Below are positions 14,958 to 40,293 of a DNA stretch of 40,358 bases, piece by piece (position 1 is the first letter of the stretch; each line of letters starts with the position of its first letter). Source of the stretch: Comamonadaceae bacterium (GTDB lineage: Bacteria; Pseudomonadota; Gammaproteobacteria; Burkholderiales; Burkholderiaceae_C); the NCBI GenBank assembly GCA_023259355.1, contig JAHFQI010000011.1, positions 1 to 40,358 of the forward strand. The letters are read 5' to 3'. Made by a program: the position numbers and the translations under genes. The notes beneath the pieces were generated by a model that saw nothing but the letters and a program-made list of their open reading frames with translations, did not search any database and was not told the DNA's origin.

Positions 14958-15034
14958 GGTGATATAGCTCAGTCGGTTAGAGCGCAGCATTCATAATGCT
15001 GATGTCGGTGGTTCAAATCCACCTATCACCACCA
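14958..15034 (+). tRNA. tRNA-Met (CAT anticodon), elongator type
   Basis: A 77-base cloverleaf with CCA encoded at 15032-15034. The acceptor stem pairs GGTGATA with TATCACC, the anticodon stem is CAGCA/TGCTG around the loop TTCATAA, and the T arm is GGTGG-TTCAAAT-CCACC. It is not the initiator, because the first pair is G-C and the anticodon stem lacks three G-C pairs. A CAT anticodon could also mark tRNA-Ile2 modified by TilS, but the C4-G69/C5-G68 pairs known as Ile2 identity elements are absent (here G-C then A-T), so elongator Met is preferred. Confidence 0.95.
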
Positions 15035-37503: not shown

Positions 37504-38628
37504 TCAAAGGCTGCGGCGCACCTTCACCGCATCGGCCAGCACCTGCAGCACGGTCAAGGAGTCGTCCCAGCCGATGCAGGCATCGGTGATGCTCTTGCCG
37601 TATTCGAGCTTGCTGACATCGTCCTTGCCGGGGGTGAACTTTTGCGCGCCCCCGTTGATGTGGCTTTCCACCATCAGACCAAAAATGTGGCGCGACCCCC
37701 CTGAGAGTTGTGCGGCAATGTCCCGCGCCACATCGACTTGCCGTTCATGCTGCTTGGAACTGTTGGCGTGGCTGCAGTCCACCATCAGGGTGGCGGGCAG
37801 CTTGGCCGCTTCGAGTTCCTTGCAGGCCGCGGCCACGCTGGCCGCGTCGTAATTGGGGGCCTTGCCGCCGCGCAGGATGACGTGGCAATCCTTGTTGCCA
37901 TTGGTCTGCACGATGGCGACCTGGCCGTTCTTGTGCACCGACAGGAAGTGGTGGCCGCGCGCGGCCGCCTGGATCGCGTCGGTGGCGATCTTGATGTTGC
38001 CGTCGGTGCCGTTCTTGAAGCCGATCGGCGCCGACAGGCCCGAAGCCAGCTCGCGGTGCACCTGGCTTTCCGTGGTGCGCGCGCCGATCGCGCCCCAGGC
38101 GATCAGGTCGCCGATGTACTGCGGCGAGATCACGTCGAGGAACTCGCTGCCCGCCGGCAGGCCCAGGCGGTTGATCTCGATGAGCAGTTGGCGCGCGATG
38201 CGCAGGCCCTCGTCGATGCGGTAGCTCTCGTCGAGGTAGGGGTCGTTGATCAGGCCCTTCCAGCCCACCGTGGTGCGCGGCTTTTCGAAGTAGACGCGCA
38301 TCACGATCTCCAGCGTGTCGGCGTACCGGTCGCGCAGCGGCTTGAGGCGCCGGGCGTAGTCGAGCGCGGCCGCAGGGTCATGGATCGAGCACGGGCCGAT
38401 CACCACGAGCAGGCGGTCGTCCTTGCCGGCCATGATGTTGTGAATCGCCTTGCGGGTGCCGTTGATCAGCGATTCAACAGGGGTTCCGCTGATCGGGAAG
38501 AACCGGATCAAATGTTCGGGAGGGGGCAACACGGTGATGTCCTTGATGCGTTGGTCGTCGGTCTGGCTGGTTTTGTCGACGGGACGCTGGTACCAGGCAT
38601 CGCTGGCTTGGGTGGATTTCGTGTTCAT
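37504..38628 (-). CDS. aroG: 3-deoxy-7-phosphoheptulonate (DAHP) synthase, class I
   Basis: A 374-residue enzyme of the AroF/G/H type. It condenses phosphoenolpyruvate and erythrose-4-phosphate, the first committed step to aromatic amino acids. Visible motifs include VVIGPCSIHDPAAALDYARRLK, MRVYFEKPRTTVGWKGLINDP, AIGARTTESQVHRELASGLS and VDCSHANSSKQ. Which amino acid feeds back cannot be decided from sequence. AAGGAG precedes the ATG. A leader peptide, alternative hairpins and a terminator lie upstream, so expression is probably set by attenuation. Tail extensions distinguish it little from E. coli AroG (350 residues). Confidence 0.96.
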   Translation of the reverse strand: MNTKSTQASDAWYQRPVDKTSQTDDQRIKDITVLPPPEHLIRFFPISGTPVESLINGTRKAIHNIMAGKDDRLLVVIGPCSIHDPAAALDYARRLKPLRDRYADTLEIVMRVYFEKPRTTVGWKGLINDPYLDESYRIDEGLRIARQLLIEINRLGLPAGSEFLDVISPQYIGDLIAWGAIGARTTESQVHRELASGLSAPIGFKNGTDGNIKIATDAIQAAARGHHFLSVHKNGQVAIVQTNGNKDCHVILRGGKAPNYDAASVAAACKELEAAKLPATLMVDCSHANSSKQHERQVDVARDIAAQLSGGSRHIFGLMVESHINGGAQKFTPGKDDVSKLEYGKSITDACIGWDDSLTVLQVLADAVKVRRSL

Positions 38629-38668
38629 CGTGGGCTCCTTGGAAAGTTGATCGGGACTGTCAGGGCAT

Positions 38669-38704
38669 AAAAAAACCGCCGGGCTGTGAGGCTCCGGCGG
38701 TTTT
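38669..38704 (-). terminator. Attenuator terminator in the aroG leader
   Basis: On the minus strand AAAACCGCCGG (38704-38694) and CCGGCGGTTTT (38682-38672) form a perfect 11-bp stem with an 11-base loop, followed by seven T residues (38675-38669). It lies 40 bases before the aroG ATG, so it would stop most transcription from upstream unless disrupted. Its 5' arm CCGCCGG is also complementary to a segment in the leader peptide coding region. Confidence 0.92.
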
Positions 38705-38723
38705 CAGTGAGGGGTTCGGGTGC

Positions 38724-38795
38724 TTACACGCTCGCCTCTCGTCCGCCGGGGACTGAGAACCAAAAGTAAAAGTAAAAAGCGATGCGCGTTTGCAT
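38724..38795 (-). CDS. aroG leader peptide, aromatic-rich (attenuation peptide)
   Basis: A 23-codon open frame from ATG at 38795 to TAA at 38724. Residues 6-13 are AFYFYFWF, seven aromatic codons in a row after the Ala (four Phe, two Tyr, one Trp). The frame then runs through PGG at 16-18 and ends before the terminator hairpin. Such runs are the hallmark of leader peptides that sense the charged tRNA of the end product. It has no Shine-Dalgarno sequence; a -10-like TACATT lies 8 bases upstream, so the mRNA may be leaderless. A GTG six codons earlier is an alternative start. The frame was too short to appear in routine predictions. Confidence 0.85.
   Translation of the reverse strand: MQTRIAFYFYFWFSVPGGREASV
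38735..38759 (-). promoter_or_regulatory. Pause hairpin and antiterminator segment in the aroG leader
   Basis: On the minus strand TTCTCAGTCC (38759-38750) pairs with GGACGAGAGG (38744-38735), with one bulged A, around the loop CCGGC. The segment CCGGCGG (38749-38743) is complementary to CCGCCGG at 38700-38694, the 5' arm of the terminator. Pairing of these two would prevent termination. This gives the classic 1:2, 2:3 and 3:4 scheme. Confidence 0.75.
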
Positions 38796-38803
38796 AGAAG
38801 CGG

Positions 38804-38812
38804 AATGTAGCA
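38804..38812 (-). promoter_or_regulatory. Possible extended -10 of the aroG leader transcript
   Basis: The minus strand reads TGC followed by TACATT (38809-38804), an extended -10 pattern, 24-29 bases after the tldD stop codon. It is 8 bases before the leader ATG. No -35 is visible. Read-through from tldD is the alternative source of the transcript. Confidence 0.35.
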
Positions 38813-38832: not shown

Positions 38833-40293
38833 TTACGCCGTGCCCCCAACCGTCAGCCCTTCGATGCGCAAGGTCGGCTGGCCCACGCCCACGGGCACGC
38901 TCTGGCCTTCCTTGCCACAGGTGCCGACGCCGCTGTCGAGCCGCATGTCGTTGCCGATCATCGTGACCTTCTTGAGCGACTCGGGGCCGCTGCCAACGAT
39001 GGTGGCGCCCTTCACCGGGTACTGGATCTTGCCGTTTTCCACCCAGAAGGCCTCGCTCGCGCTGAAGACGAATTTGCCTGAGGTGATGTCCACCTGGCCG
39101 CCACCGAAGTTGGTGGCGTAAAGCCCCTTCTTGATGCTGGCCACGATGTCCTGCGGGTCCTGGCTGCCGCCCAGCATGTAGGTGTTGGTCATGCGCGGCA
39201 TGGGCACATGGGCATAACTTTCACGCCGGCCGTTGCCGGTGGGTTTGACGCCCATGAGGCGGGCGTTCATCGAATCCTGGAGGTAGCCCTTCAAGATGCC
39301 GTCCTCGATCAGCACGTTGCGCTGCGACGCATGGCCTTCGTCGTCCACGTTGAGCGAGCCGCGGCGGTCGGCAATGGTGCCGTCGTCAAGCACGGTGACG
39401 CCCTTGGCCGCCACGCGCTGGCCGATGCGCCCGCTGAAGGCGCTGGAGCCCTTGCGGTTGAAGTCGCCCTCAAGCCCGTGGCCGATGGCCTCGTGCAGCA
39501 GGATGCCGGGCCAGCCGGGGCCGAGCACCACGGTCATCTCGCCGGCCGGGGCCGGGCGGGCTTCGAGGTTGGTGAGCGCGGCCTTCACGGCATCATTCAC
39601 GTACTCGGCAATTTTTGCGTCGTCAAAATACGCCAGGCCAAAGCGGCCACCGCCACCGCCCGAGCCCATCTCGCGGCGACCCTTGTCCTCGGCGATCACC
39701 GTAACCGACAGGCGCACCAGCGGCCGCACATCGGCGGCCAGCGTGCCATCGGCGCGCGCCACCATGACCACGTCGTACTCGCTGGCCAGGCCCGCCATCA
39801 CCTGCGCGATGCGCGGGTCCCGGGCGCGGGCCATTTTTTCGACCCGCCCCAGCAGATCCACCTTGGCCGTGCTGTCCAGCGTGGCGATTGGGTCCAGGCC
39901 GCCGTACAGCGAGCGGCTGGTGGCAATTTTTCGGGTCGGCGTCTTCACGCGCCGGCTCTGCGCCGCAGCGGATATCGAGCGCACGGTGCGCGCCGCGTCC
40001 ATCAGCGAATCCAGTGAAATGTCGTCCGAGTAGGCAAACGCCGTCTTCTCGCCGGCCACCGCGCGCACGCCCACGCCCTGGTCGATGCTGAAGCTGCCGG
40101 TCTTGACGATGCCCTCTTCCAGGCTCCAGCCCTCGGAGCGGGTGTACTGGAAATACAGGTCGGCGTCGTCCACCTGGTGCGCCGTGATTTCGGCCAGCGC
40201 GCGCGACAAGTGCGACTCGGTCAGGCCGAAAGGCGCGAGCAGCAGGGATTGGGCCGTGGCCAGGCGTTCAAGGGTGGGTTCGCGGGAGATCAT
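38833..40293 (-). CDS. tldD: Metalloprotease TldD
   Basis: A 486-residue protein of normal TldD length. TldD and TldE form a zinc protease that degrades unfolded peptides and, in some species, matures microcins or removes the CcdA antitoxin. The metal motif is HEAIGH at residues 267-272, in LLHEAIGHGLEGDFNRKG. N-terminal sequence DADLYFQYTRSEGWSLEEGIVKTGSFSIDQGVGVRAVAGE is also family-like. The ATG at 40293 is preferred over one 39 bases upstream. A TACAAT lies 6 bases before it. The gene ends 37 bases before the aroG leader peptide ATG. No tldE gene is in the window. Confidence 0.96.
   Translation of the reverse strand: MISREPTLERLATAQSLLLAPFGLTESHLSRALAEITAHQVDDADLYFQYTRSEGWSLEEGIVKTGSFSIDQGVGVRAVAGEKTAFAYSDDISLDSLMDAARTVRSISAAAQSRRVKTPTRKIATSRSLYGGLDPIATLDSTAKVDLLGRVEKMARARDPRIAQVMAGLASEYDVVMVARADGTLAADVRPLVRLSVTVIAEDKGRREMGSGGGGGRFGLAYFDDAKIAEYVNDAVKAALTNLEARPAPAGEMTVVLGPGWPGILLHEAIGHGLEGDFNRKGSSAFSGRIGQRVAAKGVTVLDDGTIADRRGSLNVDDEGHASQRNVLIEDGILKGYLQDSMNARLMGVKPTGNGRRESYAHVPMPRMTNTYMLGGSQDPQDIVASIKKGLYATNFGGGQVDITSGKFVFSASEAFWVENGKIQYPVKGATIVGSGPESLKKVTMIGNDMRLDSGVGTCGKEGQSVPVGVGQPTLRIEGLTVGGTA

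Follow-up and report, generated by a model that had tools for sequence, protein, structure and literature searches.

The aroG gene of the 40,358-nt stretch of Comamonadaceae DNA analysed here (hereafter the window) is very probably, at roughly 0.88 by our estimate, controlled by a ribosome-mediated transcription attenuator that senses the charging of Phe-, Tyr- and Trp-tRNA. The gene (37504..38628, minus strand) encodes a DAHP synthase of 374 aa (TIGR00034, 543 bits, over the cut-off) and thus acts on the pathway of the amino acids specified by the control codons; against the AroG equivalog NF006723 it scored 548 bits, below the cut-off of 568. An earlier note on this DNA had proposed ribosome-mediated attenuation for the aroG leader, a reading supported by the computations reported here through codon conservation, arm changes across the order and linkage to aroG. 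Read from the sequence, the case consists of a leader ORF, its codon-level conservation, alternative RNA arms with their co-variation, the link with aroG and a promoter element.

Organization of the aroG leader

All elements of the site lie on the minus strand. The leader ORF (MQTRIAFYFYFWFSVPGGREASV, 23 codons; 38724..38795, stop included) carries its control codons, FYFYFWF, at codons 7 to 13 (38757..38777), that is, four Phe, two Tyr and one Trp. Upstream, the sequence contains a promoter-like extended -10 element (TGCTACATT, 38804..38812), whose last T is located 8 nt before the leader ATG. The preceding gene, tldD (NF008006), is on the same strand and ends at 38833, 38 nt before this ATG. 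Folding delimited arm 1 (TTCTC, 38755..38759), which overlaps codons F13 and S14 and pairs with GAGAG, as well as arm 2 (CCGGCGG, 38743..38749) and arm 2b (GAGAGG, 38735..38740). The partner of arm 2b is either arm 1, within the small hairpin 1:2 (38759-38735), or the CCTC (38709..38712) before arm 3, which came out of folds with ribosome masking as its second, antiterminator partner. Arm 3 (AAAACCGCCGG, 38694..38704), the 5' strand of the terminator, contains CCGCCGG at 38700-38694 and pairs over 11 bp with arm 4 (CCGGCGGTTTT, 38672..38682), the 3' strand, and the terminator T7 tract is found at 38669..38675. In the free leader, the minimum-energy fold also predicted a pairing, P0, between a start-proximal segment (ACGCGCATCGC, 38779..38789) and positions 38726-38735. 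The gene itself is preceded by a Shine-Dalgarno sequence, AAGGAG (38635..38640). Coordinates previously given for the ORF, CCGGCGG, CCGCCGG, the small hairpin, the 11-bp stem and the seven T residues all proved exact, on the minus strand.

The 11-bp terminator stem is uninterrupted and closes a loop of 11 nt. The A-U pairs of this stem, four in number, take up four of the seven U residues, which leaves a G+C-rich part of 7 bp. A pattern scan for terminators over the window did not list this hairpin because the scan takes only loops of 3 to 8 nt. Similarly, a promoter scan listed none at the leader, since it searches for a -35 hexamer and would pass over an element of the extended -10 type.

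Selection on the leader ORF

The leader ORF is under selection as a coding sequence, its aromatic codons being kept as amino acids with silent third-base change. When the 250 nt before aroG were shuffled 5,000 times with dinucleotides preserved, no short ATG ORF reached seven aromatic codons per 10, and the highest count, six, was obtained once. Among 250-nt segments taken every 50 nt over the 40 kb on both strands, more than four aromatics were found only in four segments overlapping the aroG leader. We then numbered the codons of 93 family representatives back from the last aromatic one, position 0 being aromatic by construction. Positions -1, -2, -3, -5 and -6 were aromatic in 87, 86, 82, 79 and 77 of these leaders, respectively, and position -4, often Gly, Ala or Ser, in 46. 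Within the run, codons hardly vary at the first base but do so at the third.

A broader set of 154 leaders was assembled from 105 nearest-locus leaders and 49 from wider relatives. Phe codons were present in all 154, Tyr codons in 148, Trp codons in 123 and all three kinds in 120. The leaders contain 4 to 9 aromatics per 10 codons, with Phe, Tyr and Trp varying in order and number, and the commonest ending of the run, YFWF, occurs in 71 of them. The earlier suggestion that the enzyme answers to Phe and Tyr agrees with the presence of both codon kinds but was too narrow, as Trp codons also belong to the sensor in most relatives. The GGCGG kept after the run falls into different frames among lineages (SVPGGREA, SHRPADGE, PLAEG, SPTAVK), indicating that this stretch is kept as RNA and not as peptide. 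Of note, Phe in the run is mostly encoded by TTT (287 vs. 57 TTC in 105 leaders, last codon omitted), the opposite of the preference in 110 aroG genes (185 TTT vs. 742 TTC). This TTT bias may increase sensitivity or help the control region stay free of structure.

Distribution of the leader

The nearest-locus set comprised the best 80 of 593 named aroG loci and 30 loci from 60 relatives, 56 of which have aroG; Limnohabitans, Polaromonas, Hydrogenophaga, Acidovorax and Variovorax were among the genera of the nearest records listed, and on these names the family is taken to be Comamonadaceae. In 109 of 111 loci, aroG is preceded by a short ORF containing 4 to 9 aromatic residues per 10, the two loci with no leader call (L016 and L043) having too little upstream DNA and two entries (L001 and L082) both being the window. 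The earlier note had asked whether the aromatic codon run recurs in the aroG leaders of relatives, and it does so in these loci and in the family and order matches described below. Removal of L001, L016, L043, L027 (no T-run in the stretch cut) and two duplicates left 105 distinct leaders for structural analysis. In every one, a T-run follows a hairpin, whose energy ranges from -12.5 to -25.9 kcal/mol (median -19.0). The leaders of the 154-leader set likewise have a hairpin ahead of a T-run.

A covariance model, R1, was built from 66 of the 105 leaders. Within the family, it matched 146 of 150 sampled genomes, including 131 of the 133 that are near-complete; some of the 150 supplied rows to R1, and leader-built models match their own leaders by construction, with 108 matches among the 112 genomes first drawn for this search. 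Two of the four negative genomes have, respectively, no aroG match and an aroG fragment ended at residue 239 by the contig end. The other two are a genome with a 60% aroG copy start-cut by the contig end and a 55%-complete genome whose only copies are 63% and 46% identical. At the level of the order, R1 matched 47 of 200 genomes (33 of 109 genera), including the window's own. At 46 of these 47 sites, under 14 family labels, aroG follows a leader ORF in which 4 to 9 of 10 residues are aromatic, and the match in G079 (E 0.0097) was rejected, with no aroG match in the stretch examined.

With model R3, 64 of the 200 order genomes passed E 0.01, the 46 just described at 2.9e-7 or better and 18 others at 9.4e-6 or worse; the four of these 18 examined (G079, G089, G152, G109) had no aroG at the match. 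In the class, 26 of 274 genomes passed the same threshold, five at 5.3e-10 or better and 21 at 1.1e-4 or worse. Of the five strong matches, three belong to Comamonadaceae and two to another order, both of the latter before an aroG homologue at 62% identity. The three weak class matches examined among the 21 (G413, G297, G358) were discarded, having no aroG and at most four aromatics in 10, and weak second R1 matches in family genomes G555, G006 and G012 were hairpins with no aromatic leader.

Some individual loci are worth recording. In G152 (L213, G152:C20:48232-48355, minus strand; R3 E 1e-4), an ORF with six aromatics in 10, MVTFSVVYNVYFYWYRSSGGAKGC, is followed by a GGCGG-type hairpin and then by a 204-aa ORF that is not aroG. 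The same leader as in the family was seen before aroG genes of 80% and 84% identity in a record titled Solimonas sp. SE-A11 (L077) and a Desulfovibrionaceae MAG (L071), which may reflect transfer, mislabelling or a foreign contig. Tandem aroG copies follow a single leader at G057:C1:2636369-2638684, the first reading through one TGA.

As controls, we inspected 13 aroG genes from order families without an R1 match and found no upstream short ORF with more than four aromatics in 10. Among 18 further aroG copies, including the second one of the window's genome, the upstream count was at most four in 10 for 17 and five for L193; two true order leaders (L154 and L157) have only four aromatics in 10, so at that level the two groups cannot be told apart by count alone. 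No aromatic-rich short ORF was found in the roughly 390 nt upstream of pheA in the window's genome. A second leader, MFIQRTSPAACLSGLQGWGAWPWRKPAKVRN, with three Trp codons close together, was noticed in this genome before trpE (L205 from about 1203, G000:C141). The sequence TGCTACACT lies 9 nt before its ATG, suggesting that the trpE leader is probably also leaderless.

A probable leaderless start

The leader mRNA of the family is probably leaderless, as judged from an extended -10 box 6 to 9 nt before the AUG and no Shine-Dalgarno sequence. The motif TGnTAnAnT was found before 100 of the 105 distinct leaders, with gaps to the ATG of 6, 7, 8 and 9 nt in 17, 51, 28 and 4 cases, respectively. 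Across 113 family leaders, TAnnnT was present in 109 and TGnTAnnnT in 107 (8.4% and 0.5% in shuffles). As transcription usually starts some 7 nt past the -10 box, the 8-nt gap in the window would put the start of the transcript on or beside the leader AUG. No Shine-Dalgarno sequence was seen before the leader AUG in the 113 family leaders, where the median anti-SD energy was +0.4 and only two leaders were at -4 or below; the median at 74 aroG starts was -5.9.

Outside Comamonadaceae, TAnnnT was located near the leader AUG in only 17 of 41 leaders and the extended form in 9 of 41, indicating that the leaderless layout is not general. By eye, six leaders from other families (L123, L126, L129, L132, L133, L153) seem to have a -10-like box about 20-35 nt before the leader ATG. 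The transcript 5' end may have shifted relative to the leader AUG during evolution. Leaderless mRNAs with a promoter motif just upstream have been mapped in B. cenocepacia (PMC4603805).

Co-variation of the alternative arms

On comparative evidence, the best supported helix of the leader is 3:4. Arm changes on both sides, which the earlier note had proposed to look for among relatives, were found for all three helices in an order-wide alignment of 53 diverse leaders (A2) but for none in a family-only alignment (A1), whose core arms are invariant and in which no covariation was seen. We compared each A2 helix with 500 shuffles, which do not preserve relatedness and whose counts are not probabilities. 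For 1:2 (TTCTC:GAGAG), 81.0% of cells were paired and 21 cells had changed on both sides (0/500 shuffles as high). The corresponding values were 91.0% and 13 cells for 2:3 (1/500) and 95.4% and 19 cells for 3:4 (0/500). In cells paired and covariation score, each helix stood above all slid registers. Other measures were less discriminating: the number of double-change pairs for 1:2 was reached by 71/500 shuffles and one slid register, and the number of pair types by 150/500 shuffles for 2:3 and 498/500 for 3:4. At one A2 column, arm 2/arm 3 is C:G in 24 leaders and T:A in 11, and arm 3/arm 4 is G:C in 32 and A:T in 15, indicating that the three arms shift together. In L172, arm 2 (GCCCCATTAGCGG), arm 3 (CCGCTGGTGGGGC) and arm 4 (GCCCCACCAGCGG) depart jointly from the other leaders.

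We also performed swap tests on 49 order and 52 family representatives, scoring duplex energy and reversing the 3' segment to control for composition. Helix 3:4 gave z -8.6 in the order (control 0.8) and -7.2 in the family (control -1.7). The 2:3 core reached -5.2 in the order (control -0.8) and was no better than its control in the family (-1.3 vs. -1.4). Pairing of GAGAG with the CUC in the stretch before arm 3 gave -3.5 (control 0.4) and -1.8 (control 0.2), and 1:2 gave a weak -2.2 in the order (control -1.7) and -1.9 in the family (control -0.3). For P0, the values were -5.2 in the order and -3.6 in the family (control -1.2), and the order control was itself at -3.0, so the P0 signal is partly one of composition. 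Cruder cuts were made on 153 leaders (L007 was dropped, as its core motif is missing) with 2,000 permutations and 132, 44 or 16 representatives. Helix 3:4 was never reached, 2:3 was reached 0, 1 and 376 times and 1:2 was reached 1,166, 143 and 300 times. Taken as whole hairpins, 1:2 was reached 1, 116 and 93 times with 119, 46 and 16 representatives. Helix 1:2 is therefore favoured by the pair counts but weak in the swap tests. An extra small hairpin, GCGT..ACGC or ACGT..ACGT, was noticed by eye between the leader stop and arm 3 in leaders such as L002, L050, L083, L085 and L094, and it seems to have changed on both sides in one subgroup.

Ribosome-masking folds and proposed mechanism

To model a translating ribosome, RNA was hidden to 12 nt past the A site, an assumed footprint, and the downstream RNA was folded. 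For ribosome positions at codons 6-12, the antiterminator came out as the best predicted fold before arm 4 is made (-20.4 to -21.3 kcal/mol). It weakened to -14.9 kcal/mol at codon 13, and at codon 17 (-5.3) it was gone. YFWF is placed such that a ribosome stalled there would hide arm 1 but not arm 2. Once arm 4 was present, none of the ribosome positions tried gave a minimum-energy fold other than the terminator; the switch would therefore have to be kinetic, as in other attenuators. Folding of both states, which the earlier note had called for, thus yielded a predicted antiterminator before arm 4 and a terminator after it. The antiterminator pairing of CCGGCGG with CCGCCGG formed as the note had named it, but the predicted helix is longer than those 7 bp.

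We propose that RNA polymerase would start at the extended -10 promoter, giving an mRNA with its 5' end at or within about 2 nt of the leader AUG, and that ribosomes would load on this bare 5' AUG. With Phe-, Tyr- and Trp-tRNA charged, a ribosome would run through FYFYFWF. The ribosome would then mask arm 2 and GAGAG, or the 1:2 hairpin would sequester them, leaving arms 3 and 4 to form the terminator and transcription to stop at the T7 tract. With any of the three tRNAs uncharged, the ribosome would stall in the run and cover arm 1, arm 2 and GAGAG would pair with arm 3 and the preceding CCTC, the terminator would not form in time and aroG would be transcribed. In this scheme, we infer from the sequence the start site, translation, stalling, readthrough and each amino acid as an effective signal.

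Alternative explanations

The position of the hairpin behind tldD raises the question of whether it is only the terminator of that gene, with the ORF being incidental. The two genes share a strand, the gap to the leader ATG is short and tldD precedes the leader in 97 of the 154 loci. However, the leader is kept in 37 loci that show no tldD match in 700 nt or more of upstream DNA (20 other loci are too short to tell), showing that it goes with aroG and not with tldD. Together with codon-level conservation and a promoter box between tldD and the leader, this makes a mere tldD terminator highly improbable. We find it just as hard to credit that the ribosome is arrested as in TnaC, by a free aromatic amino acid bound to the nascent peptide and not by an empty tRNA. 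The frequent YFWF ending would fit such an arrest, but Phe, Tyr and Trp codons differ in number and arrangement from leader to leader (4 to 9 in 10), and the peptide past the run changes frame and sequence among lineages with GGCGG kept as RNA. The sign would also be wrong, as aroG is expected to rise on starvation.

Control of aroG through translation, reinitiation or Rho instead of an intrinsic terminator would draw on the Shine-Dalgarno sequence that aroG has of its own and on the ability of leader ORFs to act by reinitiation (PMC4833913). A stable hairpin nevertheless stands before a T-run in all 105 distinct leaders and in the 154-leader set, and 3:4 is the best supported helix; we regard such control as very unlikely. 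Scarcely more likely is a system whose chief product would be the terminated leader RNA or the peptide, acting in trans like rnTrpL/peTrpL of S. meliloti. The leaderless layout resembles that of rnTrpL, which begins at the trpL ATG (PMC7298713), but conservation here is concentrated in the control codons and alternative arms, and the peptide ends and inter-arm RNA vary. Transcription attenuation by a ribosome reading the aromatic codons is thus our preferred explanation. A broader picture, which we put forward as speculation and consider rather unlikely, is that a leaderless three-amino-acid attenuator is ancestral for DAHP synthase in the order, serving in the place of a repressor, that P0 folds over the 5' end behind the first ribosome and limits each transcript to a single reading, and that the released leader RNA of about 127 nt or the peptide has further trans targets.

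Comparison with known systems

With Rfam 15, no family reached the gathering score at the leader, in the window or in the loci of ten relatives; hence, it matches no catalogued leader family. Weak matches (ftsZ-DE the best, and Bp2_287 on the opposite strand) were far below threshold, fell on the terminator palindrome and were set aside. The window's only Rfam match at gathering score is a tRNA gene (14958-15031, plus strand). The literature searched contained no report of an aroG attenuator in this group, supplementary tables, an attenuator database and subscription papers being outside its scope. An earlier listing of the aroG leader is possible, for example among the 82 short 5'UTRs that B. 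cenocepacia work places in a supplementary table (PMC5688073) or in Merino's attenuator database, cited in PMC1173090. Each element is known somewhere, and the combination at aroG across a whole family is absent from the searchable literature; the leader looks uncatalogued and widespread. In 146 of the 150 sampled family genomes, it represents an additional short gene. We predict that entry into the aromatic pathway in the family, and in members of 13 further family labels of the order, is set by joint sensing of Phe-, Tyr- and Trp-tRNA and not by TyrR. The leader would be a compact three-input starvation sensor and could serve as a test of leaderless translation coupled to attenuation.

The enterobacterial trp, pheA and pheST attenuators combine end-product codons in a short ORF, alternative helices and an intrinsic terminator. 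In E. coli, the ilvGMEDA and thr attenuators are multivalent, with codons for several end products in one leader. The aroG leader is like trp, pheA and pheST in its end-product-codon ORF, three predicted alternative helices, intrinsic terminator and downstream biosynthetic gene, but differs in controlling DAHP synthase, in having three kinds of aromatic codon and probably in having no 5' UTR. With ilvGMEDA and thr it shares multivalency, applied here to three aromatics at the common first step of their pathway. The general model of ribosome-mediated attenuation is set out in PMC1183508. For S. meliloti trpL/rnTrpL, PMC7298713 describes a mapped 5' end at the leader ATG, trans functions and the sensing of Trp only, at trpE(G). 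The likeness is an attenuator RNA starting at the leader ATG, with no repressor needed, the start of the aroG leader being deduced from its -10 box; unlike trpL as described there, the aroG leader has Phe, Tyr and Trp codons. In gammaproteobacteria, DAHP synthase genes have been described as under TyrR/TrpR control (PMC5343134). These systems have the same gene function and signal, but rely on DNA-binding repressors and not on ribosome-mediated attenuation.
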